IMG/VR virus record: IMGVR_UViG_3300009034_000037
Coordinates: 1-62,091 of that record
From: a virus
DNA length: 62,091 nt
Direction: 5' to 3' (one strand)
Every line of letters starts with the position of its first letter. The stretch's first letter is position 1. The translations under genes were made by a program, and so were the position numbers. The notes beneath the pieces were generated by a model. The model made no database searches, was not told the DNA's origin, and saw only the letters and a program-made list of their open reading frames with translations. Below, piece by piece: positions 1,940-41,192 of this stretch.

Positions 1940-3073
1940 ATGGAATTTGTTATAGATACTAACGAATTAACCAAGAGTCTTTATAGAACTCAATGTGTTA
2001 TTGAGAAAAAAACAACTATGCCTATACTTTCTAATATTCTACTTACTTCTTTCCCGGATGGAAACATTACTATCGCTGCCACTGATTTAGAGATCGGGAC
2101 TCATGAAAAGCTTGAAGCTGAAGTATTGAGTAAAGGCAGTACCACTATAAGTGCTCGTCACTTGTATGACATTGTTCGTTCTCTTCCGAATTCCACTGTT
2201 ACAATAAAGAAACTTGAAAATAACTGGGTCGATATTCAAAGCGGTAAAATCAAGTATCGTATCCTGGGAGTAGCAGCAGAGGAATTTTGCGATTTGCCAG
2301 ACGTTAGTCAAATCAACCTCTTTCCTGTTAATTCTAAAATGATTAAAGACATGATCGATAAGACCATGCATGCAATTTCTACAGACGAAACTAGGTATAA
2401 CCTGAACGGATCTTTCCTGGAAAAACTCGACAACCAAGTTTTCCGTATGGTTGCCACTGATGGCCATAGACTTTCGATAGCTGATGCTAGTATCACTGAA
2501 AATTCGACGGCGGTTCAACAAAAAAATTTGCCTCTGACCAAGGGAGTTATTATTCCCAAGAAAGGGCTAATAACAATAAAGCGTTTGATTGAAACAAAAG
2601 AAGGCGATTGTGCTTTAGGTTTCAATAACAACGATTTGATTTTTACAATGAATAACGTAACTGTAGTAGTGCGACTTCTAGATGGTCAGTTTCCGGATTA
2701 TCGTCGGATTATTTCCGACGAACAAGAAATCGTATTTAGTATAAATCGAAAGCGCTTCATAAGCTGCCTACAACGTATTAATATTATTTCCAGTGATCAA
2801 ACGTTTAGCTCAAAAATGGTCTTAAAAAATAGATTTTTACGAGTAGAAGCTAGTAACTCTGACATCGGTGAGGCACAAGAGGATATCGAAATTAGCTATA
2901 GTGGCAGCAGTAATATTACTATTGACTTCAACATACGCTATTTACTTGATGCTTTATCTGCCATGAGTACAGATGAGATCGAAGTGGTTCTTAATGATAA
3001 ACTTTCACCTGGTGTTTTTCGGCCTTGTGAAGACCAAACACATGTCTGTATTATTAGCCCATTCCGGACTTAA
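1940..3073 (+). CDS. dnaN: DNA polymerase III beta sliding clamp
   Basis: A 377-residue protein, close to the usual ~366 residues of bacterial beta clamps. It has the expected three-domain features: an N-terminal segment with KKTTMPILSNI, a middle segment with MVATDGHRLS, and DGQFPDYRRII in the third quarter. The clamp would close around DNA and tether the replicative polymerase. The C-terminus ends SPFRT instead of the common PMRL, typical of divergent phage-borne copies. GAAAGGAAA precedes ATG 1940. It ends the small rightward operon. A phage-encoded clamp suggests either a phage polymerase or redirection of the host replisome; no polymerase is visible here. Confidence 0.95.
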   Translation: MEFVIDTNELTKSLYRTQCVIEKKTTMPILSNILLTSFPDGNITIAATDLEIGTHEKLEAEVLSKGSTTISARHLYDIVRSLPNSTVTIKKLENNWVDIQSGKIKYRILGVAAEEFCDLPDVSQINLFPVNSKMIKDMIDKTMHAISTDETRYNLNGSFLEKLDNQVFRMVATDGHRLSIADASITENSTAVQQKNLPLTKGVIIPKKGLITIKRLIETKEGDCALGFNNNDLIFTMNNVTVVVRLLDGQFPDYRRIISDEQEIVFSINRKRFISCLQRINIISSDQTFSSKMVLKNRFLRVEASNSDIGEAQEDIEISYSGSSNITIDFNIRYLLDALSAMSTDEIEVVLNDKLSPGVFRPCEDQTHVCIISPFRT

Positions 3074-24080: not shown

Positions 24081-24502
24081 TATGCAACACCACGTGTTTG
24101 TTGAGCAGGCCGTAGATCTTCGAAATACGCCTTAACTAAAGTAGGACCACCATGACCTGGATAGTGACCTAACCACTCAAGTCGTGAGACGTACACATCA
24201 GTATCGATATCGCCAATTTTTTTGAATCGGTCGTTATCTTTCAGGCTAATACCAGCTGCGTCCAGATCGACTTTTCGAAATAATACATAGCCTCGCGATC
24301 CCTCACGCGCTCCTGTTTTAGTCGGCGATAATTCCATTTGAGCGCCCCAGTTAGCTTGACCCTTTATCGTAACAGAAGTTTTACGGGCTACCTGCTGAAT
24401 AGACTCACGCGCATCGTCATCATAATAGGTAGACGCAATATCTAGCTGCTCTAATATAATATCGACCGGATGCAATAACCGCGGGTTAACCATTTTAGTC
24501 AT
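24080..24502 (-). CDS. Head closure/stopper-type neck protein
   Basis: A 140-residue protein. MVNPRLLHPVDIILEQLD at the start, a STYYDDDARESIQQVARK helix, and VLFRKVDLDAAGISLKDNDR resemble small beta-barrel head-closure proteins that follow the connector in phage neck operons. It overlaps the genes on both sides (8 bases with the connector, 1 base with the next), consistent with tight translational coupling. The exact family is not certain. Confidence 0.6.
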   Translation of the reverse strand: MTKMVNPRLLHPVDIILEQLDIASTYYDDDARESIQQVARKTSVTIKGQANWGAQMELSPTKTGAREGSRGYVLFRKVDLDAAGISLKDNDRFKKIGDIDTDVYVSRLEWLGHYPGHGGPTLVKAYFEDLRPAQQTRGVA

Positions 24503-25595
24503 ATCCCCAATGTGCAGGCGCAGCTATGCCTAATGGCGCACGAAATAGCATTATAATATCCAAGATCTCAGGATCTTCGGTCAATCCCGAAAGCCCAGAT
24601 CTGCGCTGGTCAAATCCACCACCAGCCGGCCCGTAGCGTATAGCATGTCCATCAGTACGCTCCATCAGAATTGCTCCCAATGCAGAAGGTACTGGGGCTA
24701 TAGCTCCATCTGGATCGTAAATCGGCTTAGTGAGCTTCTCGATGATCAGTTTTGTCAGTGCTCGCGTTATCGGATATGGCACTCCACCACCTAACAAACC
24801 GTGGACAAGAAATCCAGAATTCGAAACCGTTTCAGTTATCAATTGATTACCATCAGTTCCACCAACATCATTCTCCAAATGTAATAAACCACCTGTATCA
24901 ATAATACTTGCTGTAACATCCAATGTCGTCGCACCATTGATAGCAGTTTTAGCAGTTGCTGCCACGTCATCTGCAGACGTGTCCCCACTAACATCAATTT
25001 GTATATTAACCGCGTCATACCCACCAGGCGGCGTATAGGTTCCAGTTACATCGAAATAAAAGGTTACAGCCGGATTGGTTCCGTCATCTAAGACAAATGT
25101 TTCACCGTCGACCAAACTAGCTTTTGCAACAAACTGGATAGAACCACGAGCAGGAATATCGTCTTCCACAAAACCAAAGGCACCTTTGATCTCTTGGTTT
25201 TTGCGACCTCGATGAAACTTCAGTCGTCCTGTCGTCAGCGGTGCTGTATAAATGTCTGTAACCTCACTTGGGCCAATTAATGAGATTCGCGGATTATGTC
25301 TGTTATCGGGATAGCTTTTTTCGGAATAAACTTTATACAGTGTAGTATCAAGTGCAGTAGCCGATCCATTGATCTTTAAGTAATCAACTGAAATGATCGG
25401 TACTCCAAAAAATAAAGTATCGGAATCATTACCATCAATAACCAATGTGATCGTCTGAGATTCAAACCACTGACGGCAAACCCTCTCAAGTATTGATTGC
25501 CAAGTTCGAATATAGCTGGCTACTTTGGCATCAGATGCGATAGATACAGTAATACCTTCGTCCCGAATTTGCTGTACTGTAACATAATCACTCAA
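24495..25595 (-). CDS. Head-tail connector with inserted beta domain
   Basis: A 366-residue protein. Residues 1-148 and 271-366 make a gp6/adaptor-like protein (VTVQQIRDEGITVSIASDAK; GVPYPITRALTKLIIEKL). Residues ~151-270 (start FVAKASLVDGETFVLDD, then AVTFYFDVTG and TAKTAINGA) form a separate domain nearly the same as one inside the J-like baseplate protein at 10.8-11.2 kb. Without the insert the surrounding sequence reads GAFGFVEDD joined to GVPYPI, a normal loop. The connector ring would therefore display twelve or so copies of this domain on the neck. Confidence 0.78.
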   Translation of the reverse strand: MSDYVTVQQIRDEGITVSIASDAKVASYIRTWQSILERVCRQWFESQTITLVIDGNDSDTLFFGVPIISVDYLKINGSATALDTTLYKVYSEKSYPDNRHNPRISLIGPSEVTDIYTAPLTTGRLKFHRGRKNQEIKGAFGFVEDDIPARGSIQFVAKASLVDGETFVLDDGTNPAVTFYFDVTGTYTPPGGYDAVNIQIDVSGDTSADDVAATAKTAINGATTLDVTASIIDTGGLLHLENDVGGTDGNQLITETVSNSGFLVHGLLGGGVPYPITRALTKLIIEKLTKPIYDPDGAIAPVPSALGAILMERTDGHAIRYGPAGGGFDQRRSGLSGLTEDPEILDIIMLFRAPLGIAAPAHWGYD

Positions 25596-26784: not shown

Positions 26785-27981
26785 CTAGATGCTCTGACCT
26801 ACATTTATCCCCTTAACAAGCGCAGTGTCTTCTTCGAATTCAACTGCGACAGATGCATGAATAGCATATTGGTCAGTCCGTTTGTATATAGAGCGGTCGC
26901 GCTCTATGGCGATGGACGTATTTATCCCAACAATGTAGTTCAAATAATGAGTTAAAATAATCTGCGGGTTTGAATCGTAAGTCACTTTGACTGTATCGCC
27001 ATCTCCAATTGCGCTACCACCACCAGATCGTGCGACCGTACCGTTAGTGTAATCCACCACATAATCTGTCGTTTCTGTATACGCTGATTCTGGTGTGGTA
27101 TTAAGTGTTGAGGTTGTAACAATCACACTGGCGATAGGAGCATACCGAAGAGATGCCGCAACGGTACCATTCAATACAACATGTTGAGTTATTCGCGGTA
27201 AGAAATCCCACAATGGCACTTCAACGATTTTAACACCAAATGGCGTATGAGCTGCACCTTCAGCAGATGCGTCACCTAGCGGAGTCGCTCGAGTTGCTAG
27301 CTTTTCGATATATAGCTGCGCGAGATCAGACGACATGAAAAACCGTAAGTCCCTTTTATTCCGTCTAAACTTCGTTGGCATGGCTCGCAGCATATTGCCG
27401 AGAACCGTAAGCCCGATGTTGGCACCCTCGGCATCGTAAACATTACCACTGTCAGCAAGACGTATCCAACCATCTGACAATGCTAGATAGCTGTCCTTTC
27501 TATACTTTGACGTATCTCCACCATCTATATAATCACTTTCCAAGGCAGCAGCACCAACCGTATCGCCGTTAATGTATAGCTCTTCGAGATCATTTCCAAA
27601 CTGTTTGGAAAACATACGGATTACATGCTCATCAACATTTTCCTCAATGCTTCGTTCCTTAAAGAGATCACCGATTTCAATTGGCACCATAACTGCCTTT
27701 GGTGTCAATGTAACCTTTGACGCTGTGACGCCACGCCGCACACCTGGATCTTGCGCTTCTGTATGCGGTAGAGCCGCACGTCGACCGATAGAAAGTTTGT
27801 CAATCTCGAGAGTTTCGTTACGAAAACGTTCAATCCTCGCGTTATTCTGTAGAGTGGTTTCATCGATTACATAGTCAATAAATTTGTCAGCTTGTTTCGG
27901 ATTCAACTTACCAGATATTACCAGACTATCAAGCAGTATCATTGACTTACGTACCAGTTCTTCATTTGAAATACCTGCCAT
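26785..27981 (-). CDS. Major capsid protein (HK97 fold)
   Basis: A 398-residue protein after the scaffold gene. It has an N-terminal helical arm, ATLTP-type strand region (VTASKVTLTPKAVMVPIEI), SIEENVDEHVIRMFSKQFG, and RRNKRDLRFFMSSDLAQLYI. The end ERDRSIYKRTDQYAIHAS is the usual P-domain/strand pattern. Residues ~285-345 (TTDYVVDYTNGTVARSGGG, GDTVKVTYDS) form an extra Ig-like insert, likely displayed on the capsid surface. Strong position and motif support. Confidence 0.9.
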   Translation of the reverse strand: MAGISNEELVRKSMILLDSLVISGKLNPKQADKFIDYVIDETTLQNNARIERFRNETLEIDKLSIGRRAALPHTEAQDPGVRRGVTASKVTLTPKAVMVPIEIGDLFKERSIEENVDEHVIRMFSKQFGNDLEELYINGDTVGAAALESDYIDGGDTSKYRKDSYLALSDGWIRLADSGNVYDAEGANIGLTVLGNMLRAMPTKFRRNKRDLRFFMSSDLAQLYIEKLATRATPLGDASAEGAAHTPFGVKIVEVPLWDFLPRITQHVVLNGTVAASLRYAPIASVIVTTSTLNTTPESAYTETTDYVVDYTNGTVARSGGGSAIGDGDTVKVTYDSNPQIILTHYLNYIVGINTSIAIERDRSIYKRTDQYAIHASVAVEFEEDTALVKGINVGQSI

Positions 27982-28040: not shown

Positions 28041-29210
28041 CTACTGAATAATTGGATACCAGAAACCTTTCTGCACCTCTCGATTTCTAGTTGTTTCGTC
28101 GTCGTTGACTGAAGGAGCTTGTCGCGTCTTCTCGATTTCTTCTAATCGCTTAGTAAGATCTTCAACCAACATCTTAAGATCGTCGGTAGCAACTTTATTA
28201 GTAGCAACTACAGAATCGCCTTGACTTTTTTGAGTACTAGCCATCTGTAATCCTTCCTGACTCGATTCCAGCGCCTTCAACGCACCGGTAAGTGCTTTCA
28301 GCGTGTCTCCATCTCCGATCTCACCGATCAGCTTTACCAATTGCATAGTCACATCTTTTAGCGCAGTAGTCCGCGAAGCTGTAAATCTCTTCCCCTTGGT
28401 TACTGCTAAACCATCAACAATAACAGTCCCATCATCCATCACTTGAACAGCGGGTCGTTCTGACTCAGTATCATCCGTCGATTTTACATTAGACTTTGAT
28501 ACGATCCGCTCGGGAAGCGGGTATGGATATTCTCCAGCAACAACTTGGCCGAGAAACTTAAGCACTCGTTTAGTAGCGTTTTGAATATCAACCGGGACAG
28601 ATTTTTCAATTTCAATACTCTCCACACCATCTACTGACTTGCTTACCGGATATGGAAATCCGCTTGCCATCTCCAAAAATTGAGATAGCTGATCAATAGC
28701 CACAACCGAATCCTGAGACAAAGACTTTTTTGCTTCCTCTACCGAGAGAATTTCTTCAGCTTTAGCCACAGGTTTTGGATACGGATATTTGCCACCTACA
28801 ATTTTCCCAAGAAATGTCAAAACACGTGCAATTGCGTTTCCTGGCGCTCCTGCCATCTTCGACATACGCTTCATCCATTTAGCAACTTCACTTATCGCGT
28901 TAGCTAGATCCTGCGGTAACTTCTTTGTAACGGTGTCTATGTCTGATTCCCAAAACTGACTCAATTCAGCTTCGGTCTTAGGCAATACCTTCTCCACCTC
29001 TGCGACCCCGGTATAAAACTTGTCAAAGATTCCATCAGATAGACCAGCATTACCTTGGATACCTTCTTGTTCAAATACACCCATTTTCTTATCCTCCTTG
29101 AAACGTTTGATAATTAGAAACTTTCTAAGATTCGCCGCTTGATCAACTAACGACACTTCTCGTACATCCACGTCTAAAATTCTTCTTGGGTTTTCCTCCG
29201 AACGATTCAT
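28041..29210 (-). CDS. Head scaffold protein with protease-tail N-terminus
   Basis: 389 residues from ATG 29210 (a TTG at 29222 is in frame). The first ~38 residues (ILDVDVREVSLVDQAANLRK, then FLIIKR) are the motif that normally ends XkdF-type prohead proteases. The rest is helical and Lys/Glu-rich, with two imperfect repeats of the type VLTFLGKIVGGKYPYPKP and VLKFLGQVVAGEYPYPLP, and a C-terminal coiled coil (TDDLKMLVEDLTKRLEEIEK). It is probably the internal scaffold degraded by the protease. A strong ribosome site AAGGAGG precedes an internal ATG at 29084, predicting a second, shorter product. Confidence 0.72.
   Translation of the reverse strand: MNRSEENPRRILDVDVREVSLVDQAANLRKFLIIKRFKEDKKMGVFEQEGIQGNAGLSDGIFDKFYTGVAEVEKVLPKTEAELSQFWESDIDTVTKKLPQDLANAISEVAKWMKRMSKMAGAPGNAIARVLTFLGKIVGGKYPYPKPVAKAEEILSVEEAKKSLSQDSVVAIDQLSQFLEMASGFPYPVSKSVDGVESIEIEKSVPVDIQNATKRVLKFLGQVVAGEYPYPLPERIVSKSNVKSTDDTESERPAVQVMDDGTVIVDGLAVTKGKRFTASRTTALKDVTMQLVKLIGEIGDGDTLKALTGALKALESSQEGLQMASTQKSQGDSVVATNKVATDDLKMLVEDLTKRLEEIEKTRQAPSVNDDETTRNREVQKGFWYPIIQ
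29084..29097 (-). promoter_or_regulatory. Internal ribosome binding site and start in the scaffold gene
   Basis: AAGGAGGATAAGAAAATG: a near-perfect Shine-Dalgarno sequence eight bases before ATG 29084 (product start MGVFEQEG). This site is stronger than the one for the full-length start, so most scaffold may lack the ~42-residue N-terminal motif. Confidence 0.6.
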
Positions 29211-29233
29211 CAGCAAACTCAAATCTCCAAAAC

Positions 29234-29308: not shown

Positions 29309-29337
29309 AGGCTAGTCTTACTTGATTACGGTGTCAA
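29309..29337 (-). promoter_or_regulatory. Candidate promoter upstream of the terminator/scaffold gene
   Basis: Minus-strand TTGACA (29332-29337), a 17-base spacer and TAGCCT (29309-29314). Transcription would start near 29302, just ahead of the terminator at 29272-29234, an attenuator-like layout. The -35 lies inside the end of the small gene 29318-29527, so chance is possible. Confidence 0.45.
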
Positions 29338-29527
29338 GAGTTTCGATTTTAAAACTAGTTGTCTCCGTAATGTGTACGACCTTCCCACTTTCAAATTTCA
29401 AAAGAACTTGACCAAAAAAGCAATTACGACTAAGCTTTTCAACATATCGACAAATAGACTCTACTTGATCTAATTGTGCCAAGGTAGAGTTTGAATTGTC
29501 AAGTGTTTTATTACAATGTTGTCTCAC
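29318..29527 (-). CDS. DUF2292-like small protein
   Basis: 69 residues. The segment VEKLSRNCFFGQVLLKFESG, followed by KVVHITETTSFKI, matches the DUF2292/YezD pattern (a small domain with an aromatic-Gly turn and a strand of the type Gly-Lys-Val-Val-x-Ile). It is often carried by phages; function unknown. It overlaps the end of the large fusion gene by 4 bases and is followed by the terminator. Confidence 0.65.
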   Translation of the reverse strand: MRQHCNKTLDNSNSTLAQLDQVESICRYVEKLSRNCFFGQVLLKFESGKVVHITETTSFKIETLDTVIK

Positions 29528-32500
29528 AATACCGTCGCGGTACCACCAATTGAAAATCCAGTTATATCACCCGACTTAACTCTTTTCCATAATGCGTCAT
29601 CTATAATCTTGTTCGTCATCAACCAAGTACCTTGTTTCACTCTCTGCGAACCGAGTTTAAGATCCACCGGAGCAATCCAACTTTCAACCAGCTCAATTCC
29701 ATTTTCGCCAAATATCTCATGAAGTAACCCAAGCTGAGTGGCACGATTATATCGAGCTAGAAATGTATGAGCCGCACGTTCGATAGCCTCAGCGCTAATT
29801 ATATCACCCTGTGCATCAATTACATTTGGTTCAAGTACAACTCCGGTAACAAGTTGTTTTTCCTTGTTGACTTTAGTAATTGGCATGTGAAAAGCAATTT
29901 CTGTCTGAAATTCATCTACTATCTTATCGAAATCCTTTTTGACTTCAGGTCCCGATTTCGAACGAGACCATAACCAATCATCATTACTACGCTTGGCTTG
30001 ATATAGCCCTTTTAGCTTTTCACCCTTCAACTGCACCTTAATAAACTCATTACTATACGAAAAGACCGACGCCTTGCCACTGTCCAAGATTTCGATATTT
30101 GAAGGCGTTGTCTTCGTTGGATTAAGATAATGACTAGGTTTGATTGGCCCCGCAAGATTCATTGACTCCTTGTGAGGATCTTCAGTCACTCGTGTTGCTA
30201 ACTGCTTGTTATCTAGCGGATTGAGATACATTTCAAGTACTATGAGATCAGGTCGACCAACATCTAGACGTAACTGCCAAAGTGTTCGCGAAGGTCCTAC
30301 CCGTATCTGTATCGGGCCACGCCACGTCTGCTCCTGAAGAACAAACTTAGCATCCAACATAGAAGTCTTTGTTACTTCTCGCTTGTACGGTGCTGTATAA
30401 TCGATTTCTACGTTTTTCGTTTTAACTGCCCAGTATAAACCATCTCGAACTTGCTTAGCTGTAGCCACTGTTTTTTTCTTCCAGTAATGATACTCAATCG
30501 GGATTTGCTCACGAACAGCTTTTGGCAAAGCAGAAACACCCACTGGAGGCATCCAACCTTTTTTGACTGCATCCTTATCCAGTACATATGGTGTTTGGTC
30601 ATCTGGCCTGATACACAGCCAGACTGGTCCAGGTAGTTCAGACTCTTCAGATGGAGGCAAAATAGCTTTTGAGATCTGAGGTACACAATCCTTTTTGTGA
30701 ACATCTGCCCATTTTTTGGGAGCTTCTCCAATCGTAATCCCTTTTTCTCCAACAATTTCAAGCCAGTTCTCTTTGTTCCTGTCTTTAAAATCCTGTTTCC
30801 ACTTAACAAAGTGCTCTTTACAAAACCAAGCTCGACCGCGCCCATCAGCCCAGAGGACATCGATCTCTGGTGCCCGCTTACAACCATCATACATACACTG
30901 TTTACGCGACGGCTTTGACTTTGCTACTTCTAACTGCCAAGACTGCATTACCCTATCTACAATTTCATTTTTTAAATTGTCAGGCAGAACCTCAAGATCT
31001 TTTTTCAATCGAAGCTGTCGAAAAATAACTCGATAGTTGAGAGCCTCACCGTGGAAAAAATATTCGTGAAACCAACTCTTTTGTGACCCGTACTCGGTCT
31101 TACCTCTGTCAACGATCTGAAATACACCAGGAAAATGGCGTGTTCCACCTATTGGTGGTGGTTTACCCAGCTCTGGCTTTTTCGTAACTCCTTCAACATC
31201 CTTCCATGCTATTGGCTCTGGACTTTTTCTAATAGCTTGTATGCTAGTTCTTACAGGTTTTTCTACTCCACGCTTGGCTCGCTTTGCCCACTCCCCGGTG
31301 TCCCAGTTGATTTTACTAATCTTATCCATGCGAGTACGACTAAGCTGTCGAGCTTCAGAAAGCGTTATTATCGGTTCTTTGATTGCGTCTTTAATACCTG
31401 TCAACAACGTCCAACCTATTAGCAACTTTTTTGGACGAAGCACAATTCGTAGATCCGAATGCAGTCCTCTTCCGCGTATATGATGCTGTACTGCATAATC
31501 GTAAGGACCTTCTTCCTCTGGCGGTATCTCCATATAGGGATCGGCTTGCTTTTCAACCGTGCGAGTTGGCAAATATTCGATGTTGCCTTCCTCATCGATT
31601 TTCTTAACTTGTAAAACTAGATTGCGCTTAGCACGGGTAGCAGCACTGTCAATCGTATCAGCTTTGTCTGTCCAAGGACCGATAACTCGCGGAACCCAGA
31701 CAGACATTCGCTCGCCTTTTGGGGTAACTTCAATATTAATTGTTTCACCTTCAATTAAAATAGAATCGCCTTCGTCAAAATCCAGTTTAGTAGCAAATGT
31801 ATCTCCTACTGGGACAATCGTCTTGTCTTTGATATCAACAGTCTCCACTGGCTTACCTGAAGGTAACACCCCCCACTGGTATACCCAGATACCACCTTTG
31901 GTTTTCTCACGACCAATGACAATTCCGCGCACGGTACTGGAGTTATGGTACTTGACCCACAAATCTAGCGCCACTTCTTTTAATGGATATGGACTATCTA
32001 TTTGCTTACAGACTACGCCCTCTGAACCAGGTAGCTCTCTAATCTTACGTACAATCTTTTCTAACTCTTCTAGATCATGCGCTATAGCTCCTGGTACGAC
32101 ATTAAGCCTATGCTTTAGATCTGGTACACCCATGGTAGATTGTTTAATGTCTAGCTTTTCCAAGACTTCCAGCCGCTGTTGAACAGGCCAGTTATGAATA
32201 TCGCCATCCTTGTCATGATAAAGCACATCAAATATATTAGTTATAATATCAGTGTCATTTGGTTCATCCTTGGAATGCAAATAACCAGCTATCGCCTCAC
32301 GTGGTAGATGCTGACGGCCTTGCCATAATTCGATTTCGCAGTCGAAGACTAGCTTATCAACTTTGAGATTACTGATTTCTTCGATGGTCTGTGGCAACCG
32401 CGCTACATTATCTTCGCCATTTTCAGAGATGATTTTAATCTTATTACCATCCTTGTGCACTTGGTGACGGGCTCCATCATATTTCTTTTGTACGAAGGCT

Positions 32501-34779
32501 GGTAGCCAGATTTCGGCCCGCTCACGATACAACGACAAAAATCGCCTTAGCGTTTGTAGCTCATAAGGAAACGCAGGTCGGGTTGGCTTCGGCATGTAGA
32601 AAAATTCGCCAAGAGTAAGCTTGTCATGTTTTTCAGCACGTTCAGCTTGTTTTTCGAAATCTGAAGATACAACTCGAGTTTCATATTTTTCAACTAATTC
32701 CATACCCATCAATTTGATTTCGTTCTTGGGGTTGATACGCTCAAATGTTAAATCATAAAGCGGTACATTATTTGTCATAGGCCCATGGAAATTATCGTAG
32801 TGAATTTCAAGTCGCTCAGCCAAATCTGAGGGTAAAGCTCGACCGAGTCTGAAATGAATTACATGCTTAAAGCTCTCCGGTAGATCTTCAGTATCCTTAA
32901 CCAAGATATCAATATCACCCTTGGTCTTACCCCTATTGGCTAACCCACCAACGAGATAAACGTAAGGTTGTTTAGTTTTAAAAGTCTTGAAGTGCTTTAA
33001 AACATCCGTCAGCGAGATCTCCTCACCTCGCTCAACTCCCGAGGCGTTGATCCATGCGTACTCTCTTTTCTCTATTTTTTGCCACGGCGGCTTATCGTAA
33101 TCTGGTTGCTTTTCCGCATACCGCTCAAAGTCTCCCGATACATCGTCTAGCCCATCTCCTGGTGGAGATGGATGAACGATCTCTCGGTCGTATAGTTCAT
33201 CAACCACAAGAGCATGCAGGTTTACAATCTCTTCTTTAGTTATACCCTCCGGCCCTCGGGGACCGAGTTCGATCTTTGCTTCGAAAAGCTCATGTAGTCG
33301 CCAGTGCAACTCAATTAACTCAGTGTTAGTCTTGCCTATTACATCTATATCCGGAGCAACTATAACCCGCCTAATCATAACTTCAGGCAACTTTACCTCA
33401 CGCGCTACACGTTCCCAAAACTCACGGACAAATGGCTTCATGTCCTTTGGACTAAATCGCATAGTTTCAGGACCACGCCGAGCTGCCTCTTCTAGTATTT
33501 TACGTAACAGTAACTCAAGTGTCTCTAGATCGTATTTAAATCCCTCAGGGTTTTTCTTCCACGTAGTATACCACGCAAGAGTCAAACGATGGTCATCTCT
33601 AAGCACTTCATCACTTATTTTACTAGGATCATAGGTCTTAGGATCACGGATTTTCTCAACACCAAAATCCAACTCATGTATTTCAGAGTGTGCCAATTCC
33701 ACCTGGTCAATTACAAACTCTGAATTCAACTTGGGCAGATTTTCACATCTTCCTCCAAATGAAAGATATGCAATAGTAGCATGTGGTATGAACCCATGAC
33801 TTTGATCTTCTTCCTGAAGCCCTGCTTCGACTACTGCACCTTTTATCGCGGTGTATACATCAGATAAATCAGGAGCATCCAATAAAACAACAAGTGCTGT
33901 ACATGGTTTACCATCTTTACTAGCTCCGTCAAAATACCCCCAGCCCTGAATTTTTGCGCTGATAGGCAAGAATTTGGACAGTGTTTTTTGCGCTACAGCT
34001 TGCGCCTTCTTCGCGTCAGCTTCAGAAAAACCGTTATCTCCACCACGAAGATAAAGCAAAGTTACATGATCAACATCTTCAACTTTGGCACCTGTCTTAC
34101 TAGCATACTTCTGTGAGATTTCCGTTAGCGTATTACGTACTGACTCGGGTAACCGAATATAGAAAAATAAGTCTTTAGGATTTGTTTTGATTTGCTTTTT
34201 TATCTTCACATCGTGTACAACTACCTGCGGATCAGGCCCAACATTCGTTTCTTGTGGCTGATCGAATTTTTCTACAACTTTAACCGGCCATGCGTAAAAT
34301 GGTCCGTTTTCCCAGCGGGGTTGCTTACTCATCCATTTGGCACGAAGGTCCATATTAATCAGGTGTTCATCCTCAGTCTGTTGCAACTCAGCTAGACTCA
34401 TCTCGGTTAACTTGCCTAAAGCAACTATACCCAAGGCTTTTTGTTCATTAATCAACAGGTAGACTCTATCACTGATTTCAAACGGCCGCGTTTTTACAAT
34501 TATTGATTTTTTACCATCAATTACAGCCTCAGCCATACTAGTAGGGGTAATGATCAAACCATTAGGTGGCAAGTCTGACTCAGCTTGTTTGATATTACTA
34601 TTTACCCAAGTTAGTTCAATCGAACCCTTTTCTTCTTCTGGCAGTATGCCGCTCTCGCCAAACTGCTGTGATGGATACAGCTTACCACTTTCTTCCAGCT
34701 CGTTAATACCAATAGCTTTGGTAATAGGTACCGTTCGATTAAATGGATCCATAGCGCGTCTTGGCAGTCGCTTTCGCAT
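29524..34779 (-). CDS. Giant fusion: ASCH-like, 2H-PEase, NTase, DNA ligase, LigD-PE, prohead protease
   Basis: 1751 residues from ATG 34779 (TTG 34824 is in frame and overlaps the MuF gene; residue numbers here count from that TTG). Visible in order: ~88-190 ASCH/PUA-like; ~215-390 2H phosphoesterase with HVT (254) and HAT (348); ~618-700 nucleotidyltransferase with GG (626) and GDIDIL (636-641); ~770-1060 ATP-dependent DNA ligase with KYDGAR (lysine 781), FDCE (~827), FDVLYH, EGVVCK (~935) and WVKYH; ~1105-1290 LigD-type 3'-phosphoesterase with YAVQHH and LHSDLR; ~1310-1338 zinc site C-x4-C/C-x2-H; ~1494-1530 a second, weaker PE-like segment; ~1640-1766 XkdF/S78-type prohead protease with VLEPNVIDAQGDIIS, LLHE, VESW and ITGFSIGG. 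It occupies the protease slot between MuF and scaffold. The repair domains may be packaged and then cut free (inference). Confidence 0.85.
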   Translation of the reverse strand: MRKRLPRRAMDPFNRTVPITKAIGINELEESGKLYPSQQFGESGILPEEEKGSIELTWVNSNIKQAESDLPPNGLIITPTSMAEAVIDGKKSIIVKTRPFEISDRVYLLINEQKALGIVALGKLTEMSLAELQQTEDEHLINMDLRAKWMSKQPRWENGPFYAWPVKVVEKFDQPQETNVGPDPQVVVHDVKIKKQIKTNPKDLFFYIRLPESVRNTLTEISQKYASKTGAKVEDVDHVTLLYLRGGDNGFSEADAKKAQAVAQKTLSKFLPISAKIQGWGYFDGASKDGKPCTALVVLLDAPDLSDVYTAIKGAVVEAGLQEEDQSHGFIPHATIAYLSFGGRCENLPKLNSEFVIDQVELAHSEIHELDFGVEKIRDPKTYDPSKISDEVLRDDHRLTLAWYTTWKKNPEGFKYDLETLELLLRKILEEAARRGPETMRFSPKDMKPFVREFWERVAREVKLPEVMIRRVIVAPDIDVIGKTNTELIELHWRLHELFEAKIELGPRGPEGITKEEIVNLHALVVDELYDREIVHPSPPGDGLDDVSGDFERYAEKQPDYDKPPWQKIEKREYAWINASGVERGEEISLTDVLKHFKTFKTKQPYVYLVGGLANRGKTKGDIDILVKDTEDLPESFKHVIHFRLGRALPSDLAERLEIHYDNFHGPMTNNVPLYDLTFERINPKNEIKLMGMELVEKYETRVVSSDFEKQAERAEKHDKLTLGEFFYMPKPTRPAFPYELQTLRRFLSLYRERAEIWLPAFVQKKYDGARHQVHKDGNKIKIISENGEDNVARLPQTIEEISNLKVDKLVFDCEIELWQGRQHLPREAIAGYLHSKDEPNDTDIITNIFDVLYHDKDGDIHNWPVQQRLEVLEKLDIKQSTMGVPDLKHRLNVVPGAIAHDLEELEKIVRKIRELPGSEGVVCKQIDSPYPLKEVALDLWVKYHNSSTVRGIVIGREKTKGGIWVYQWGVLPSGKPVETVDIKDKTIVPVGDTFATKLDFDEGDSILIEGETINIEVTPKGERMSVWVPRVIGPWTDKADTIDSAATRAKRNLVLQVKKIDEEGNIEYLPTRTVEKQADPYMEIPPEEEGPYDYAVQHHIRGRGLHSDLRIVLRPKKLLIGWTLLTGIKDAIKEPIITLSEARQLSRTRMDKISKINWDTGEWAKRAKRGVEKPVRTSIQAIRKSPEPIAWKDVEGVTKKPELGKPPPIGGTRHFPGVFQIVDRGKTEYGSQKSWFHEYFFHGEALNYRVIFRQLRLKKDLEVLPDNLKNEIVDRVMQSWQLEVAKSKPSRKQCMYDGCKRAPEIDVLWADGRGRAWFCKEHFVKWKQDFKDRNKENWLEIVGEKGITIGEAPKKWADVHKKDCVPQISKAILPPSEESELPGPVWLCIRPDDQTPYVLDKDAVKKGWMPPVGVSALPKAVREQIPIEYHYWKKKTVATAKQVRDGLYWAVKTKNVEIDYTAPYKREVTKTSMLDAKFVLQEQTWRGPIQIRVGPSRTLWQLRLDVGRPDLIVLEMYLNPLDNKQLATRVTEDPHKESMNLAGPIKPSHYLNPTKTTPSNIEILDSGKASVFSYSNEFIKVQLKGEKLKGLYQAKRSNDDWLWSRSKSGPEVKKDFDKIVDEFQTEIAFHMPITKVNKEKQLVTGVVLEPNVIDAQGDIISAEAIERAAHTFLARYNRATQLGLLHEIFGENGIELVESWIAPVDLKLGSQRVKQGTWLMTNKIIDDALWKRVKSGDITGFSIGGTATVL

Positions 34780-34816
34780 AATCATTCCCCAATTTATAAT
34801 CTCTTGATTTTCATCC

Positions 34817-36796
34817 TTAAGCAAACTCTCTTAACTTCTTTTTAAGATCATCCTCAATCAACCACTGTACCTTTTTGGTCAATTTTTTGACATCTTCAAC
34901 CATCATACCAGCTGTCAGTTCCGAAGGCAAAGTTATACTTTCTACATAGCGCTCTAGATATTTGTCAGCTGATATCGCGCTATCAGCCCTACCTCGTAGC
35001 TTTATCGATGCTTCGGCCGCAACCTCACGCGCTCCGAGACCTCTAGTATGTTTAGACCATTTCTTGTAAGATTCAGATCCACGCAACACATTGTCCATTG
35101 CCTTTTGAACAGAGTTAACAATAGCAGCCGTAAACACCATATTAGATCGGTTCTTGACTTGATGCCACTGCAATCCAAAAGTGTCCTTTAGAATTTTCTC
35201 AGTGGCCAACTGCACCGTTCCTTCTTCTAACATCGACCCTATGCCCACTAACGCTTTATCGGTAGCAGGCGCGTGCGCACGCATCGTCTGACGAATAATG
35301 GTAGACATTCCGCTGATAGACTTAGTATCAATCTTGCCTTTTAAAAACCTAGCAGCGTCTTTCCTAGACTGATCTGATATGTCAATCCTTCCAGTAGACA
35401 TCACGTAAAAACCAGCGTCTTCTTCAAATTCTTTGGATACGACTATGTCAGCCGCTTCGTCTAAATTGTCAACGATTGGTCGGCTAATCATACCCCGCTC
35501 AGCCGCAATAGCGTTTAGCTCCCGACGTGCGCTTACTTGAGCACTAGGCCTAAGAGCAATTCCTTTCTGTGGCCCTTTTTTTGCTGTACTTAGCAGATAA
35601 GTTGCCAGCAAAGCAGCACCAAAATATTGATCTGGTCTCGTTTTATGTGAAGGCACTTTGGGAAACTCTCGTGGTCGTTGTCCTTTAGGTAATTTTGGTC
35701 GGGGAGGTATAGGTACACCGGGAGGTCTTGGCAAAGGTGCCGGCGCGTAAGTCTCAAAAGAGGCGGCTTCCGTAGAAACATCAACAGTACAACGACAACG
35801 GTAATGAAATGGTGGCAAAGAAAACCCAGCATCCGCAAGCTTTCCCGCGTCGTCCGGACCAACTGGACCAGCTTTTGGAGAAACTGCTTGCAATCTACTC
35901 AGGTTAGTCCACGGGTGCACACTTTTTATATCTTGCGGAGTCTTAGCACCAAGCTCCGCGTTAAGTTGACGCGAGCCGTGATCGATAGCAAAAACCTTGC
36001 CATCCATGTGTAGACAGACTTCGCACGTCCGACGATCAACCGTAGCGTTGATATAGTACTTGGTAACACCCAGGTCTATAAACGACCTCATCTGTCCATG
36101 AGTTCTTCCTACAGTAGCAGCGTTTGCGGCAAGTCCCTCAAAGTACTGTCGAGATGTCCCATGAAACCCTCCTGGAGTTCGAACATGGCTAAGCTCATCC
36201 TTAATGCGTTCGCTCATAAGCTTGCCGGCAGCTACCTGATCGGTACCAGCTTCAATCATGGTTTCCTTTGCCGTCTTAGCAATAGATTCAGAAAGGTTTT
36301 TCGAATAATGTTTGCCAACCCAAAAAATCTGCTGTTCTGCAATTGCCTTCACCGCAGATTCGTCCACCAAGTCAAAAGTCGGTAACAACTGTGCAAATCG
36401 CCGCTTGGCTTTTTTTAGCTCTGAAAAACTTGGTGCCGAGTAAGATAATAGCGCAGTGGTTTCCCTGTTCGCTTTTCGCCACCCAGCCTTACGAGCTAAT
36501 TGATAAATATGCTTGGTATCTTTTTCTACTCTTGGGACTACATCACGGGTCCACTTCAACATTTCTCTTTCGACAACTTTAGAAATATCCTTCGCAGGTT
36601 TGAGTCGTCGAGCTAAACTACTAGCCCTATCTACCGCGGTACGTACCCGCTTGTTCCATGTGGTATCAAGATACTGACGAAGTAGTAGCTCTATTCGAGC
36701 TATTTGAGCAACCTCAGAAATGCCTATCGTCTTAGCCACTAGTTCATCAACAGCAGTCAGCCCCTCTAGCCATATGTTAGCGACAGACTGACCCAC
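34817..36796 (-). CDS. MuF-type minor head protein with extra C-terminal domain
   Basis: About 659 residues from GTG 36796, which follows GAGGAATAACATA; the frame extends to a TTG at 36859 that overlaps the portal gene. The middle (residues ~200-360 of the long frame) is the phage Mu F/SPP1 gp7 head morphogenesis domain: RRTCEVCLHMDGKVF, later PPFHYRCRC. A Pro-rich linker follows (PAPLPRPPGVPIPPRPK), then ~270 residues with IIRQTMRAHAP and SMLEEGTVQLATEKI. This tail resembles a metallopeptidase-like domain (helix with H, then LEEG) in which the HExxH motif is lost. MuF proteins often carry C-terminal effector domains that are packaged in the head. Confidence 0.82.
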   Translation of the reverse strand: MGQSVANIWLEGLTAVDELVAKTIGISEVAQIARIELLLRQYLDTTWNKRVRTAVDRASSLARRLKPAKDISKVVEREMLKWTRDVVPRVEKDTKHIYQLARKAGWRKANRETTALLSYSAPSFSELKKAKRRFAQLLPTFDLVDESAVKAIAEQQIFWVGKHYSKNLSESIAKTAKETMIEAGTDQVAAGKLMSERIKDELSHVRTPGGFHGTSRQYFEGLAANAATVGRTHGQMRSFIDLGVTKYYINATVDRRTCEVCLHMDGKVFAIDHGSRQLNAELGAKTPQDIKSVHPWTNLSRLQAVSPKAGPVGPDDAGKLADAGFSLPPFHYRCRCTVDVSTEAASFETYAPAPLPRPPGVPIPPRPKLPKGQRPREFPKVPSHKTRPDQYFGAALLATYLLSTAKKGPQKGIALRPSAQVSARRELNAIAAERGMISRPIVDNLDEAADIVVSKEFEEDAGFYVMSTGRIDISDQSRKDAARFLKGKIDTKSISGMSTIIRQTMRAHAPATDKALVGIGSMLEEGTVQLATEKILKDTFGLQWHQVKNRSNMVFTAAIVNSVQKAMDNVLRGSESYKKWSKHTRGLGAREVAAEASIKLRGRADSAISADKYLERYVESITLPSELTAGMMVEDVKKLTKKVQWLIEDDLKKKLREFA

Positions 36797-36800
36797 TATG

Positions 36801-38546
36801 TTATTCCTCAGTATATACTTCACTACGCCACTGTTTCTCAAGCTGGTTACGCAAACCAATCAACCGATCTACAAGATCAGCATCAGTTATACCTTGCTCG
36901 AACAATGGTATGTCAGATCCAGTAAGTTGCTCAATCATTTTAAGTGCAGTTACGGTTTGTCCAGGTTCCACGGGAGATGCAAGATTTTTAACGGCCTCGG
37001 CCATTGTCTCACTAAAAGGCCTATCCGCTGGAAAGTCATCCGGAAAAGGCGGTAGTTCAGTTCCAAGTATATCTTCGAGCAAAATTCTTGCTATTCGCGG
37101 TGTCATTCCACCAGTCTTTTCAGCACCAGCAAGTATACGCACAAGCTCGGTATTGTCTGTTGTGTTTGGCGAGTTACTTTTAAATTTATGGTAGCGCACA
37201 CCCATAACGGGAAATAATCGTCTATTTATCAAAGAATCAAATTCATCACGCTCAGGTGAAAAAATCTGTTCATCGGCTATACGCCGGGAGGTCTCAGCCA
37301 CAGCACGATTGTATGCTTCGGCTTGCCCAACCAGCACTGGCGGAATCCGGAATGCTCGTCTTATTTTTTCTCTATTGTGTGCGCTATAGTTTTGAAACAA
37401 AGCGTCCTTATGCTGCTCTGAAGCTAGTGGCTTCACATCGAGTTTTGCGTGTCCTGGAGATTCGCCTTCAATGTCGGGCGATTCGGCTTCAATAACGACA
37501 AACTTTGAGTAGTTGTCAGAACCTTGCACCCGAGTAGCTACAAATTCCGTCAATCGATCTATAGTAGCCTGAGTTAACTGTCCGTTGCTAACCAGCAATA
37601 GCATAGAAGGTACATTATTATTACGGAAAGTCGTATAGTTAATTTCTTCAGATGCACGATCCCCATATACAGAGAGAAGATTTCCAATAATTCTTGGTAA
37701 GCCATAAGGACTTCTGGGCGAATACAACCTCATGTGGACAATTTCATTCGCCCTACGCTCTTCTGGTAGTTTGTAAATATCTGCGCCCGTTACTTCCTCT
37801 CCAGTTTCGTTATTGTAAATCCGTGGGTCGCCAAACTCTTTAAACCAACGTTTTTCCAACGAGCCAGACATTGACCGAATTCCTATAGATGTCATCCATG
37901 TTTGTACGTAGCTTCGAAAACGCTTCCATACCGGAACGTTTTCAATCTCCACAACTCCATCATCAAGCAAACGATAGATTGGTAGAGATACCTTTATTGG
38001 ATCTCGATCTAATTTTGATAGATATACCTGATATGATGGTAGATGATTAAATCCTTGGATATCACCTCGTGCATTACGAATAACTTCAAACTCCGCATTG
38101 CCGGTAGTTTCCAAGTCAACTCGCAATTTCCGACGAAACATAACAAACGAATCATCAATACTGGCATAAAGAAAAAAGTTTTCCAACCACAATCGCTCTT
38201 TCTCAATCTCTATTTTCAAATCACCTGTAATTTTCTCGGGTCTTACTCGTGACACTAACCGATGCCCAAATCCCTCTATGTTTATCTCCATCGCCGAAAT
38301 GCACGGTGTGAGTTCCGAATTCATCTCTGGCAACGTTGCTAACTGTAAAAGATCAAACGGCGGCTCGATAATATCACCAGCCTTGATCAGCCCTTGAATA
38401 TAGTCTTCCGGCAACTCCTTCGATTTGCCAGGCTCGGATCGAGATTCATCAGCTTTCGTAAGAGGAAACACCATTGCACGTATTTTCGTCAGATTGCGTT
38501 TACTTTCCGAAATAAAATCCCTAACTTGTTCTCTGGCTTCGTTCAT
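36801..38546 (-). CDS. Portal protein
   Basis: A 581-residue protein downstream of the large terminase and upstream of the MuF gene. Features of PBSX/SPP1-type portals: an N-terminal arm, MNSELTPCISAMEINIEGFG, HMRLYSPRSPYGLPRIIGNL, ASEEINYTTFRNNNVPSMLL, and the crown/stem segment HNREKIRRAFRIPPVLVGQ. It forms the dodecameric vertex ring for DNA packaging. ATG 38546 starts 22 bases after the terminase stop. Confidence 0.9.
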   Translation of the reverse strand: MNEAREQVRDFISESKRNLTKIRAMVFPLTKADESRSEPGKSKELPEDYIQGLIKAGDIIEPPFDLLQLATLPEMNSELTPCISAMEINIEGFGHRLVSRVRPEKITGDLKIEIEKERLWLENFFLYASIDDSFVMFRRKLRVDLETTGNAEFEVIRNARGDIQGFNHLPSYQVYLSKLDRDPIKVSLPIYRLLDDGVVEIENVPVWKRFRSYVQTWMTSIGIRSMSGSLEKRWFKEFGDPRIYNNETGEEVTGADIYKLPEERRANEIVHMRLYSPRSPYGLPRIIGNLLSVYGDRASEEINYTTFRNNNVPSMLLLVSNGQLTQATIDRLTEFVATRVQGSDNYSKFVVIEAESPDIEGESPGHAKLDVKPLASEQHKDALFQNYSAHNREKIRRAFRIPPVLVGQAEAYNRAVAETSRRIADEQIFSPERDEFDSLINRRLFPVMGVRYHKFKSNSPNTTDNTELVRILAGAEKTGGMTPRIARILLEDILGTELPPFPDDFPADRPFSETMAEAVKNLASPVEPGQTVTALKMIEQLTGSDIPLFEQGITDADLVDRLIGLRNQLEKQWRSEVYTEE

Positions 38547-38568: not shown

Positions 38569-40050
38569 CTATATCAATCCTGGCTCAGTTGCTCTAACCT
38601 GTCTACGTTTTCTTTTCTTTCGGCTTGCGCGTATTGCTAAATCAAAAGCGTCCAGCCCATCTCTATATCGGTATCCAGGAAAAAGTACAAACTGATCAAT
38701 CAGCGTTTCCATGTTTTTACGAAAAAATATTCGCTTATCCTCGAATCTCGGAGTTAGTTTTAATGCACGAGTCATTTTATCCTTGTCCGTATGAATTGGA
38801 ATAAACCGATAATTTTTGTCTCGATGTTTTATCTCTTGGTAGAAAGCCCGCTGATAAGCATTAGACTCTACCGCCGCGCGAATAGGATCATGACGTTCGT
38901 ACATCGACAATGCTTTGTCAATTTGCCTCGGAAACGTAATATGCCCAAGATAAAAATCCAAGACGTACACATTTTCTGATTTATCTATTCCGATTACAAC
39001 CGTTGCAAATTGAGCGCTATCACGGGTTTCCTTTTCGCTAACTGCCAGATCAGTACCCTGATAAACCCGCAAACCAGTAGGAAGCTTATTATCATCAATG
39101 ATTTGGCAATCGTCATATTGAAAAACTTCACCCTTCATCGCTTCGGTATCACAGAGAAACTGACAATTAAATATCACAACGCCCGACTTCCGCTTCTTTG
39201 CTTCAAACCATTTAGGCGGATGCCTCTCTGGCCAAGGACTTTTACCTGACCAGTCTAACGCGGGAAATATCTGATGACTTTTTGCTAACTCGTTTGCCAT
39301 CAAGCTACCATACAAATCGTCAAAATGATATCGAGTACCTACCATATGATGCTCACCGCGATGAGGTATATCTGGATCTGGAGCTTCCAAACATGGGTCA
39401 AGCGTCTGATAAAACCAAGATCGCATCTTGTCGCGCATGTACTTAGTTCGACTATTTTCCTCATCGACAAGATCATCACTTAGTATAATGTCTGCATGAT
39501 GAGATGCTAACGTGGCATCTATTGCACCACAACACATTACAGACGGTTGCTTATCTGTACTAGTACGTGGCACGATCTCGATTTCTATCTCGTCCCATTT
39601 GGCAACCTTGCGTGGATCATAAAACTCGCCAAAAATCTCAATCAACCGCTGATTGCTTTCGAAGTGCGCCTTGATTTCTCGTAGAAACCCCTTGGCGTTC
39701 CCGGTAGTCTTACTGGCTAATATAATTCTAAGATTCGGATCTTTTAATAAGTAATGAATAGTCTTTGCTATTGTCAACAATGTTGATTTCCCAGATCCCC
39801 TATATGCAAGTTGCAGCGTATGTGGTTCATAAAATTGAAATAACAGCATTGACATGTGAAACGGCTTAACTTCATAACCAAGTACTTGCGTTGCCAACAA
39901 GTCAATCCGATCATGTTCTAAGATCGCCCTGCGCAAAACTTCATTATAAATAGTTCGATAATGCTTGAATAAATTTAGTAGGTCGTCTCTACTTGCGGTA
40001 TCCAGGGCAGTAGGATCGCCCTCGAGCAGAGGTATTGCCAACTCTGGCAT
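38569..40050 (-). CDS. Large terminase subunit
   Basis: A 493-residue protein. The N-terminal ATPase has Walker A YRGSGKSTL, a LRIILASKTTGNAKGFLREI segment and Walker B ADIILSDDLVDEEN. The C-terminal nuclease has GTDLAVSEKETRDSAQFATV and ends in a basic tail (RASRKKRKRRQVRA) fitting DNA contact. It cuts and pumps DNA through the portal. The start ATG is six bases after the stop of the upstream gene. Confidence 0.93.
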   Translation of the reverse strand: MPELAIPLLEGDPTALDTASRDDLLNLFKHYRTIYNEVLRRAILEHDRIDLLATQVLGYEVKPFHMSMLLFQFYEPHTLQLAYRGSGKSTLLTIAKTIHYLLKDPNLRIILASKTTGNAKGFLREIKAHFESNQRLIEIFGEFYDPRKVAKWDEIEIEIVPRTSTDKQPSVMCCGAIDATLASHHADIILSDDLVDEENSRTKYMRDKMRSWFYQTLDPCLEAPDPDIPHRGEHHMVGTRYHFDDLYGSLMANELAKSHQIFPALDWSGKSPWPERHPPKWFEAKKRKSGVVIFNCQFLCDTEAMKGEVFQYDDCQIIDDNKLPTGLRVYQGTDLAVSEKETRDSAQFATVVIGIDKSENVYVLDFYLGHITFPRQIDKALSMYERHDPIRAAVESNAYQRAFYQEIKHRDKNYRFIPIHTDKDKMTRALKLTPRFEDKRIFFRKNMETLIDQFVLFPGYRYRDGLDAFDLAIRASRKKRKRRQVRATEPGLI

Positions 40051-40552: not shown

Positions 40553-40858
40553 CTATTCGTGAGCTTCGTAATAACAAAGCTCTCCACTAACGTTTACATC
40601 AGTATCTGCACCAATCGAAAACCCATTTGCCCGAGGTGTAATTCCAAGACTCGTAAGAACAGAAATCGTTCCGTCAATTGCGGTCTTAACTCCATGTGCG
40701 TCAGCCATTCCGCGAAACCACTCTAGACGCACTAACCCACTAGCATTTACGTTTGTTACTCGAACTAACTTCGGTCGAAAGCCAACTGTATCAACATTGA
40801 TCGTTGATCCAGTACCATAAACTCCCCCAACCATTGTTCTATTGACTCCGGAAGACAT
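40553..40858 (-). CDS. Decoration-like protein, paralogue 2
   Basis: A 101-residue protein starting MSSGVNR and ending GELCYYEAHE. It is about two-thirds identical to the next gene upstream (40887-41192); shared blocks include NVDTVGFRPKLVR or FKPKLVR, EWFRGMAD and ITPR-NGF. The beta-rich sequence and the phrase GADTDVNVSGE resemble short capsid or collar decoration domains. ATG follows AAGGAGGT. Two copies suggest two related surface proteins, perhaps under diversifying selection. Confidence 0.65.
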   Translation of the reverse strand: MSSGVNRTMVGGVYGTGSTINVDTVGFRPKLVRVTNVNASGLVRLEWFRGMADAHGVKTAIDGTISVLTSLGITPRANGFSIGADTDVNVSGELCYYEAHE

Positions 40859-40886: not shown

Positions 40887-41192
40887 CTATTCGTGAGCTT
40901 CGTAATAACAAAGCTCTCCAGTAACGTTCATGTCACTATCAGCACCAAATGCGAATCCATTTGTTCGTGGAGTAATTCCGTTGCTGGTAACCACCGAAAT
41001 CGTTCCGTTGGTTACAGTTTTGATCGCGGAATCGTCAGCCATTCCGCGAAACCACTCAAATCGGCACTTACCACCACTTGCCACATTTACTATACGAACC
41101 AGCTTTGGCTTAAAACCCACCGTATCAACGTTGAGATCTGCACTAGCTCCATAAAATCCCTTTACCGCAACTCTATTGACTCCTGAAGACAT
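40887..41192 (-). CDS. Decoration-like protein, paralogue 1
   Basis: A 101-residue protein, tandem paralogue of 40553-40858 with the same length, start and end. Shared core: DLNVDTVGFKPKLVRIVN and FEWFRGMADDSAIKTV. GGAGGTTGAA precedes the ATG. A promoter-like sequence lies upstream beyond a TnpB remnant (41467-41496), which could give these structural genes their own expression. Function inferred only from composition and position. Confidence 0.65.
   Translation of the reverse strand: MSSGVNRVAVKGFYGASADLNVDTVGFKPKLVRIVNVASGGKCRFEWFRGMADDSAIKTVTNGTISVVTSNGITPRTNGFAFGADSDMNVTGELCYYEAHE

Follow-up and report, generated by a model that had tools for sequence, protein, structure and literature searches.

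Why would a tailed virus place enzymes for mending DNA ends on the same polypeptide as its head protease? The question arises from the IMG/VR virus record IMGVR_UViG_3300009034_000037, of which all 62,091 nucleotides were analysed (the window), and in which one uninterrupted open reading frame (ORF) of 1766 codons runs on the minus strand (34824..29524) from a TTG at 34824. The reading to which we incline, with somewhat more confidence than doubt, is that this ORF encodes a cargo polyprotein of the head operon, carrying an end-repair kit like that of bacterial LigD that would be delivered with the DNA to heal or seal the incoming genome. The earlier note on this DNA had placed a protein of about 1750 residues at 29524-34824; the coordinates and the single ORF stand, the coding strand is the minus strand, and ATG 34779 is the probable true start, giving 1751 aa, since relatives begin at the position of M16 and a GGGG run lies 8 nt upstream. 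A plus-strand reading of the region was rejected, with stops throughout. In order, the domains are ASCH, 2H, helical, a DNA polymerase X (PolX)-like nucleotidyltransferase (NTase), DNA ligase, a first phosphoesterase (PE1), a variable zinc insert, a second phosphoesterase (PE2) and an XkdF (S78_2) protease. Residues are numbered from the TTG start (1766-aa version), and L numbers denote loci of relatives:

29524..34824, minus strand, entire multidomain ORF (1766 aa from TTG; 1751 aa from the probable start ATG 34779)
34198..34563, minus strand, ASCH, residues 88-209 (Foldseek 2dp9, E=1.6e-5, and 5guq ASCH, 1.1e-3; in 37 loci)
33667..34173, minus strand, 2H phosphoesterase, residues 218-386 (Pfam 2_5_RNA_ligase2, 3e-8; window and L003 only)
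33127..33336, minus strand, helical domain with an invariant His, residues 497-566 (alignment; in 51 loci)
32680..33009, minus strand, PolX-like nucleotidyltransferase palm, residues 606-715, with GG 626-627, D637/D639 and D691 (profile: TdT/Pol beta)
31639..32622, minus strand, ATP-dependent DNA ligase, adenylation and OB domains, residues 735-1062 (Pfam 6e-23; Foldseek 1.8e-17; conservation)
31000..31551, minus strand, LigD-type 3'-phosphoesterase PE1, residues 1092-1275, with H1115, H1122, D1124 and R1126 (family profile)
30673..30948, minus strand, variable insert with a zinc site, separating PE1 from PE2, residues 1293-1384 (comparison with relatives)
29950..30375, minus strand, PE2, with a degenerate active site in the window, residues 1484-1625 (profile: 3p43, 1.1e-5)
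29527..29880, minus strand, catalytic part of the XkdF/S78_2 head protease, residues 1649-1766, with H1702 and S1758 (Pfam 3e-30; phrog_3017 6e-38)

The ASCH, 2H, NTase, ligase, LigD-type PE and XkdF calls made earlier from motifs are borne out by Pfam, Foldseek and family profiles. Pfam places 2_5_RNA_ligase2 at 226-354 (3e-8), DNA_ligase_A_M at 776-959 (6e-23) and Peptidase_S78_2 XkdF at 1649-1764 (3e-30), and both 2H H-x-T motifs are present (H253-V-T255 and H348-A-T350). The structure model of residues 600-1640 has a mean predicted local distance difference test (pLDDT) score of 81, and all 50 PDB matches listed for it by Foldseek are DNA ligases, with 3gde as the best (E=1.8e-17). Among viral folds the top match is A0A516LT18 (E=1.4e-27). 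The ligase motif residues are K781, E830, E935, K940 and K958, with a motif VI-like VWVPRV at 1042. For residues 1-610 the model reaches a pLDDT of 61, with ASCH placed at 88-209 and the remainder of low or mixed confidence, and Foldseek returned nothing reliable for the N-terminal half outside ASCH. The NTase is visible only as a palm-sized domain, bearing the GG/GS...DxD palm motif of DNA polymerase X; its profile finds TdT or Pol beta as the top 47 of 48 PDB matches (each weak, E 0.06-0.9), with Pfam NTP_transf_2 in 3 of 30 NTase members and DNA_pol_B_palm also weak in some.

Since PF13298 LigD_N run alone against the window gave no match, family profiles were built for the phosphoesterase search. 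With the PE1 profile, LigD 3'-phosphoesterase structures rank first (3p4h at 1.5e-4, then 3p43, 5dmp, 3n9b and 2lj6), and the H, H, D, R core is kept (H1115, H1122, D1124, R1126). With the PE2 profile, the LigD 3'-phosphoesterase structure 3p43 comes first (1.1e-5), and LigD_N is matched in 5 of 19 PE2 members. The identity proposed earlier for the second PE-like segment thus holds, with the qualification that its catalytic H and HxD are lost in the window lineage; L010 retains them. The zinc site listed earlier proves to be a variable insert: L002 and L005 have it, L006, L008 and L009 carry another Cys-rich form, and L003 has none.

How might such a set of enzymes reach the inside of a head? 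The C-terminal XkdF-type protease was correctly assigned to its family in the earlier note (3e-30), but it is not a complete protease, as its last strand lies on the scaffold ORF. The match to phrog_3017 is cut in two, with positions 33-154 at the C-terminus of the fusion protein (6e-38) and positions 2-33 on the scaffold ORF:

29094..29189, minus strand, remaining protease strand (VREVSLVDQAAN...F), N-terminal in the scaffold ORF, residues 12-43 (phrog_3017 2-33, E=4.5e-9)

With near-duplicates included in both counts, all 31 fused protease ORFs stop 3-11 residues past the protease domain and 28 of them have the strand on the following ORF by hidden Markov model (HMM), with L050 and L060 added by eye, whereas all 26 unfused protease ORFs run on for 89-733 residues and the same HMM finds the strand on the next ORF in 0 of 26. 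Judged from these profile matches, the protease of the fused forms is divided: the cargo ORF has its catalytic part, and the scaffold ORF has the strand that remains. The position of the strand differs elsewhere in the family: it stands ahead of the protease within one ORF in Firmicutes XkdF proteins, and behind it in L013 and L014. The XkdF/S78_2 proteases of EG-TP1 and PBP180 (with DNA methyltransferase/protease annotations) belong to the same family and share the place ahead of the capsid gene, but there strand, protease and scaffold form one ORF, whereas in the window the strand and scaffold share an ORF and the protease is fused to the cargo. The window protease keeps the catalytic His and Ser of the S78_2 fold, though not the whole protease in one ORF. 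A divided protease occurs in phiPsa374 and Rhizobium TM16 as well, and there no repair cargo accompanies it. The idea that an intron or a programmed frameshift links protease to scaffold was rejected: the gap contains a small ORF, the spacing ranges from overlap to ~300 nt, and the relative frame differs from one relative to another. Most simply read, one protease would be shared between cargo and scaffold, and its assembly would draw the cargo into the procapsid; the division between the two thereby suggests a route of entry.

The fusion is one form of a wider module. Viral-contig searches yielded 12 and then 78 loci, on contigs that are partly the same, and an iterative HMM survey, with lineages defined as clusters at 90% PE1 identity, found PE1 and PE2 encoded at 81 loci, or 63 lineages. 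Among these lineages the ligase occurs in 55, the NTase in 51, PE2 in 63 and the 2H domain in 2 (the window and L003); the head protease is present in 39, fused in 23 and on an adjoining ORF in 16. The order of the core is variable, with the NTase behind the ligase in L010-L013, and the partner domains differ from locus to locus (DNA methyltransferases of the D12 and C5 types, ASCH, 2H and a DpdA-like domain). A stable core with changing order and partners is, on this comparison, what would be expected of a functional set and not of one frozen fusion. L014 is located in a contig of a Planctomycetota metagenome-assembled genome. Among 50,697 phage records searched by tblastn with four different queries, ANMV-1 virus alone carries the PE-ligase module; it was not found in plasmids, where the only similarity was to a LigD ligase, in B. 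multivorans.

Two features of the relatives deserve separate mention. A DpdA/TGT-like domain, recognised by eye from conserved motifs, lies ahead of ligase-PE-protease in L009:7008-7970, L021, L031, L032 and L034, and this fusion suggests a cargo for DNA base modification. In L010:4622-8602, L011, L012 and L013 the ligase adenylation domain extends over two ORFs with a break between motifs III and IV, which is an in-frame TAG in L010, L012 and L013 and a longer interruption in L011.

Among the grounds for refutation, the earlier note had named an assembly chimera and disrupted active sites in homologues. The same joins are found in independent contigs, so the protein is not a chimera, and catalytic residues are near-invariant across members: K 64/65, D 65/65, E 65/66, E 66/67 and K 66/66 in the ligase motifs; G626 63/63, D637 63/63 and D639 62/63 in the NTase; the protease His and Ser 56/56 each; and the PE1 H 108/108, with PE rows pooled. 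The PE1 quartet as a whole shows hardly an exception. Median dN/dS (nonsynonymous to synonymous rate ratio; Nei-Gojobori, pairs limited to dS 0.1-1.2) is 0.08 for the NTase, 0.09 for the ligase, 0.18 for PE1, 0.11 for PE2 and 0.18 for the protease. Selection on the module is purifying, and the predicted active sites of the NTase, ligase, PE1 and protease are intact. That the ORF is a chimera or a decaying gene has its unusual length and nothing else in its favour, and with identical joins in independent contigs, dN/dS of 0.08-0.18 and conserved active sites against it, it is very improbable.

Inteins usually invade the active sites of functional enzymes, and they are found here at ligase motif I in L009:7008-12215 (KKYDG^) and L066:3744-7547 (KWDGM^), near that motif in L083:2-4786, and inside the NTase in L073:283-4293 and L087:2-2917. 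The MuF gene of L002 (L002:5077-7797) has an intein-like insertion of ~545 aa. The terminase and portal genes are interrupted in L027 and the portal gene in L034, and these interruptions suggest further inteins.

The setting of the module is that of a head operon at every locus checked, and the order described earlier (portal, MuF, fusion gene, scaffold, major capsid protein) holds in dozens of relatives. L084, L086, L052, L089 and L039, sampled with PHROGs from loci where the local HMMs had missed the neighbours, all show the module next to genes for a terminase, a portal, a head protease or a major head protein. In the window, the minus strand reads terminase, portal, MuF, fusion gene, a 69-aa ORF, a scaffold-like ORF, major capsid protein and tail genes, and a sheath among the last points to a contractile tail:

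38569..40050, minus strand, terminase large subunit (phrog_38, 1.5e-74)
36801..38546, minus strand, portal protein (phrog_12, 1.7e-40)
34817..36859, minus strand, MuF-like minor head protein with a C-terminal extension of ~310 aa (Pfam Phage_Mu_F)
29318..29527, minus strand, small ORF of 69 aa, separating the catalytic protease part from the scaffold-like ORF (no Pfam match)
28041..29222, minus strand, scaffold-like ORF of 393 aa, bearing the protease strand (PHROGs match of strand)
26785..27981, minus strand, major capsid protein (virion structural protein; phrog_1623, 5e-69)

The MuF extension (window 34817-35750, minus strand) is missing in L003 and L005, has no Pfam match, and is possibly another head-borne effector domain. 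By eye, the 69-aa ORF (29318-29527, minus strand) resembles small DUF2292-type proteins, and its region holds a promoter-like site and, also by eye, a terminator-like hairpin ahead of the scaffold start. Elsewhere, a domain of ~125 aa is common to two structural ORFs (window 24495-25595 and 9277-11820), and an L003 homologue of the former shares 67% identity with a segment of the latter; upstream of the terminase stand 101-aa tandem paralogues (window 40553-40858 and 40887-41192), duplicated in relatives too. A DnaN-type clamp gene at 1940-3073 indicates a bacterial host. Searches of the window gave no match in Rfam, no tRNA, and no known defence system in PADLOC.

To what known systems can this arrangement be compared? 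It is like bacterial LigD of non-homologous end joining (NHEJ) in combining an ATP-dependent DNA ligase (motifs I-V), a 3'-phosphoesterase and a nucleotidyl-transferring domain. Unlike LigD, it has a PolX-like palm in place of an archaeo-eukaryotic primase (AEP) polymerase, two PE domains, a viral head operon and a protease fusion, and no Ku was found. As domain searches of the fusion protein gave no match to an AEP-type polymerase either, the core would work like LigD but is not LigD. The ANMV-1 virus 'ATP-dependent DNA ligase' AJP62006 (KP703175) has the same NTase-ligase-PE1-PE2 order, but it is from an archaeal virus, shows 29% identity and has no protease fusion. No paper was found in the literature on the ANMV-1 ligase, virion delivery of a ligase, or a protease/ligase fusion.

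The polyvalent proteins described by Iyer et al. (2017; PMC5512222) are similarly built, with disparate enzyme domains in one polypeptide, an assemblin-like head peptidase that is always C-terminal, and a portal-terminase phage head neighbourhood; their packaging and injection were inferred. Nudix domains fused to a capsid-processing serine peptidase were reported later (Iyer et al., 2022; PMC9503650). The earlier note knew of no described equivalent; as the excerpted text of these papers makes clear, a head-protease fusion is already described (PMC5512222, PMC9503650), with packaging inferred for the polyvalent proteins, and it is the type of cargo that appears to be new. In these excerpts, a cargo of DNA ligase, LigD-type PE and PolX-like domains is not mentioned, nor is a protease-scaffold split; the word 'ligase' occurs three times in PMC5512222, and the excerpted text passage deals with RNA ligases. 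The DNA end-repair cargo and the split-protease rule thus appear to be undescribed, as far as these excerpts go.

The 2H domain raises the possibility that the 2H, ligase and NTase domains act on RNA ends or cyclic nucleotide signals, as RNA repair or anti-defence. The excerpted text of PMC5512222 and PMC9503650 associates phage 2H domains with RNA repair and with counter-signalling, and the window protein has such a domain. However, it is limited to 2 of the 63 lineages, the 50 of 50 ligase matches listed by Foldseek are DNA ligases, Pfam names DNA_ligase_A_M only, and PE1 and PE2 resemble the DNA-acting PE of LigD, all of which makes a role in RNA repair or anti-defence quite improbable.

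If the substrate is DNA, where would the enzymes act? In the reading we favour, the scaffold-borne strand would complete the protease and so carry the cargo inside the procapsid. During maturation the protease would cut the cargo free, and the freed enzymes would enter the next cell along with the DNA, where they may mend and close breaks at the ends of the incoming genome or nicks within it, and perhaps join the two ends. The DNA methyltransferases and DpdA-like domain on relatives' polypeptides would fit an immediate protection and repair of that genome. We infer packaging, injection and enzymatic activity of the repair domains, and the case for packaging is strengthened by the conserved head-operon position, the several switches between fused and separate forms, and the scaffold-borne strand.

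The main rival is that the module works in the producing cell, where late expression would let it mend nicks, gaps and ends of concatemers for packaging, after which it may leave the capsid or be degraded by the protease, undelivered. In other phages, ligases influence how nicked DNA is packaged, the module sits in a late operon, and some lineages have the repair genes as separate ORFs, all of which count for repair before packaging. However, the fused label on the PE1 tree needs at least four changes, these being well supported, and with the protease split between cargo and scaffold they favour a role in the procapsid. Furthermore, methyltransferases, ASCH, 2H and DpdA-like domains stand on the same polypeptides without an obvious packaging role. 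Repair confined to the producing cell is therefore unlikely, if still worth weighing.

A narrower possibility is that the delivered module has circularisation of the incoming linear genome as its specific job. The precedent is that of mycobacteriophages Omega and Corndog, which circularise their genomes with phage Ku and host LigD (Pitcher et al., 2006, cited in PMC7719229, as excerpted), and the LigD-like domain set of the window protein is in keeping with it. In both cases a phage would use end-joining chemistry at infection. In Omega and Corndog, Ku comes from the phage and LigD from the host, whereas here the LigD-like enzymes come from the phage and no Ku was found. Moreover, a PE is unnecessary for clean terminase-cut ends. 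Strict end joining is less likely without Ku, and we regard genome-end joining as the specific job of the module as improbable.

Several observations weigh against delivered end repair. Ku was found in 0 of 43 records, many of them fragments; to join blunt ends, some other bridging factor would thus be required. The protease is a separate neighbouring ORF in 16 of 63 lineages, and fusion is thus not required. Head genes were not recognised by HMM in 21 lineages, of which only 5 were checked with PHROGs, and the L080 neighbours tested by PHROGs gave no informative match, with weak matches or none for some of its genes. The PolX matches of the NTase are individually weak, and its third Asp (D691 in the window) is present in just 33 of 61 members. 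Lastly, we take the catalytic positions of the PE to be His42, His48, Asp50 and Arg52, the core quartet of P. aeruginosa LigD, plus His84 and Tyr88; Glu1203 and Trp1207 stand at the last two in the 3p4h profile alignment, and the PE chemistry may therefore differ.

More broadly, though we hold this as tentative and on balance doubtful, uncultured tailed viruses may widely carry virion-borne, NHEJ-like end joining that is loaded when a scaffold-borne strand completes a split head protease, whose cargo-borne half both recruits the repair enzymes and releases them, with repair as the first enzymatic act of infection. The split between protease and scaffold would then be a rule for loading enzymes into heads. 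A function-rich module that is near-absent from phage reference records is now available, and many uncultured lineages offer compact ligase, PE and NTase enzymes. If true, DNA repair delivered by the virion would alter ideas about the requirements of phage DNA on entry, and would point to ways in which phages withstand nucleases, restriction or long persistence outside cells.

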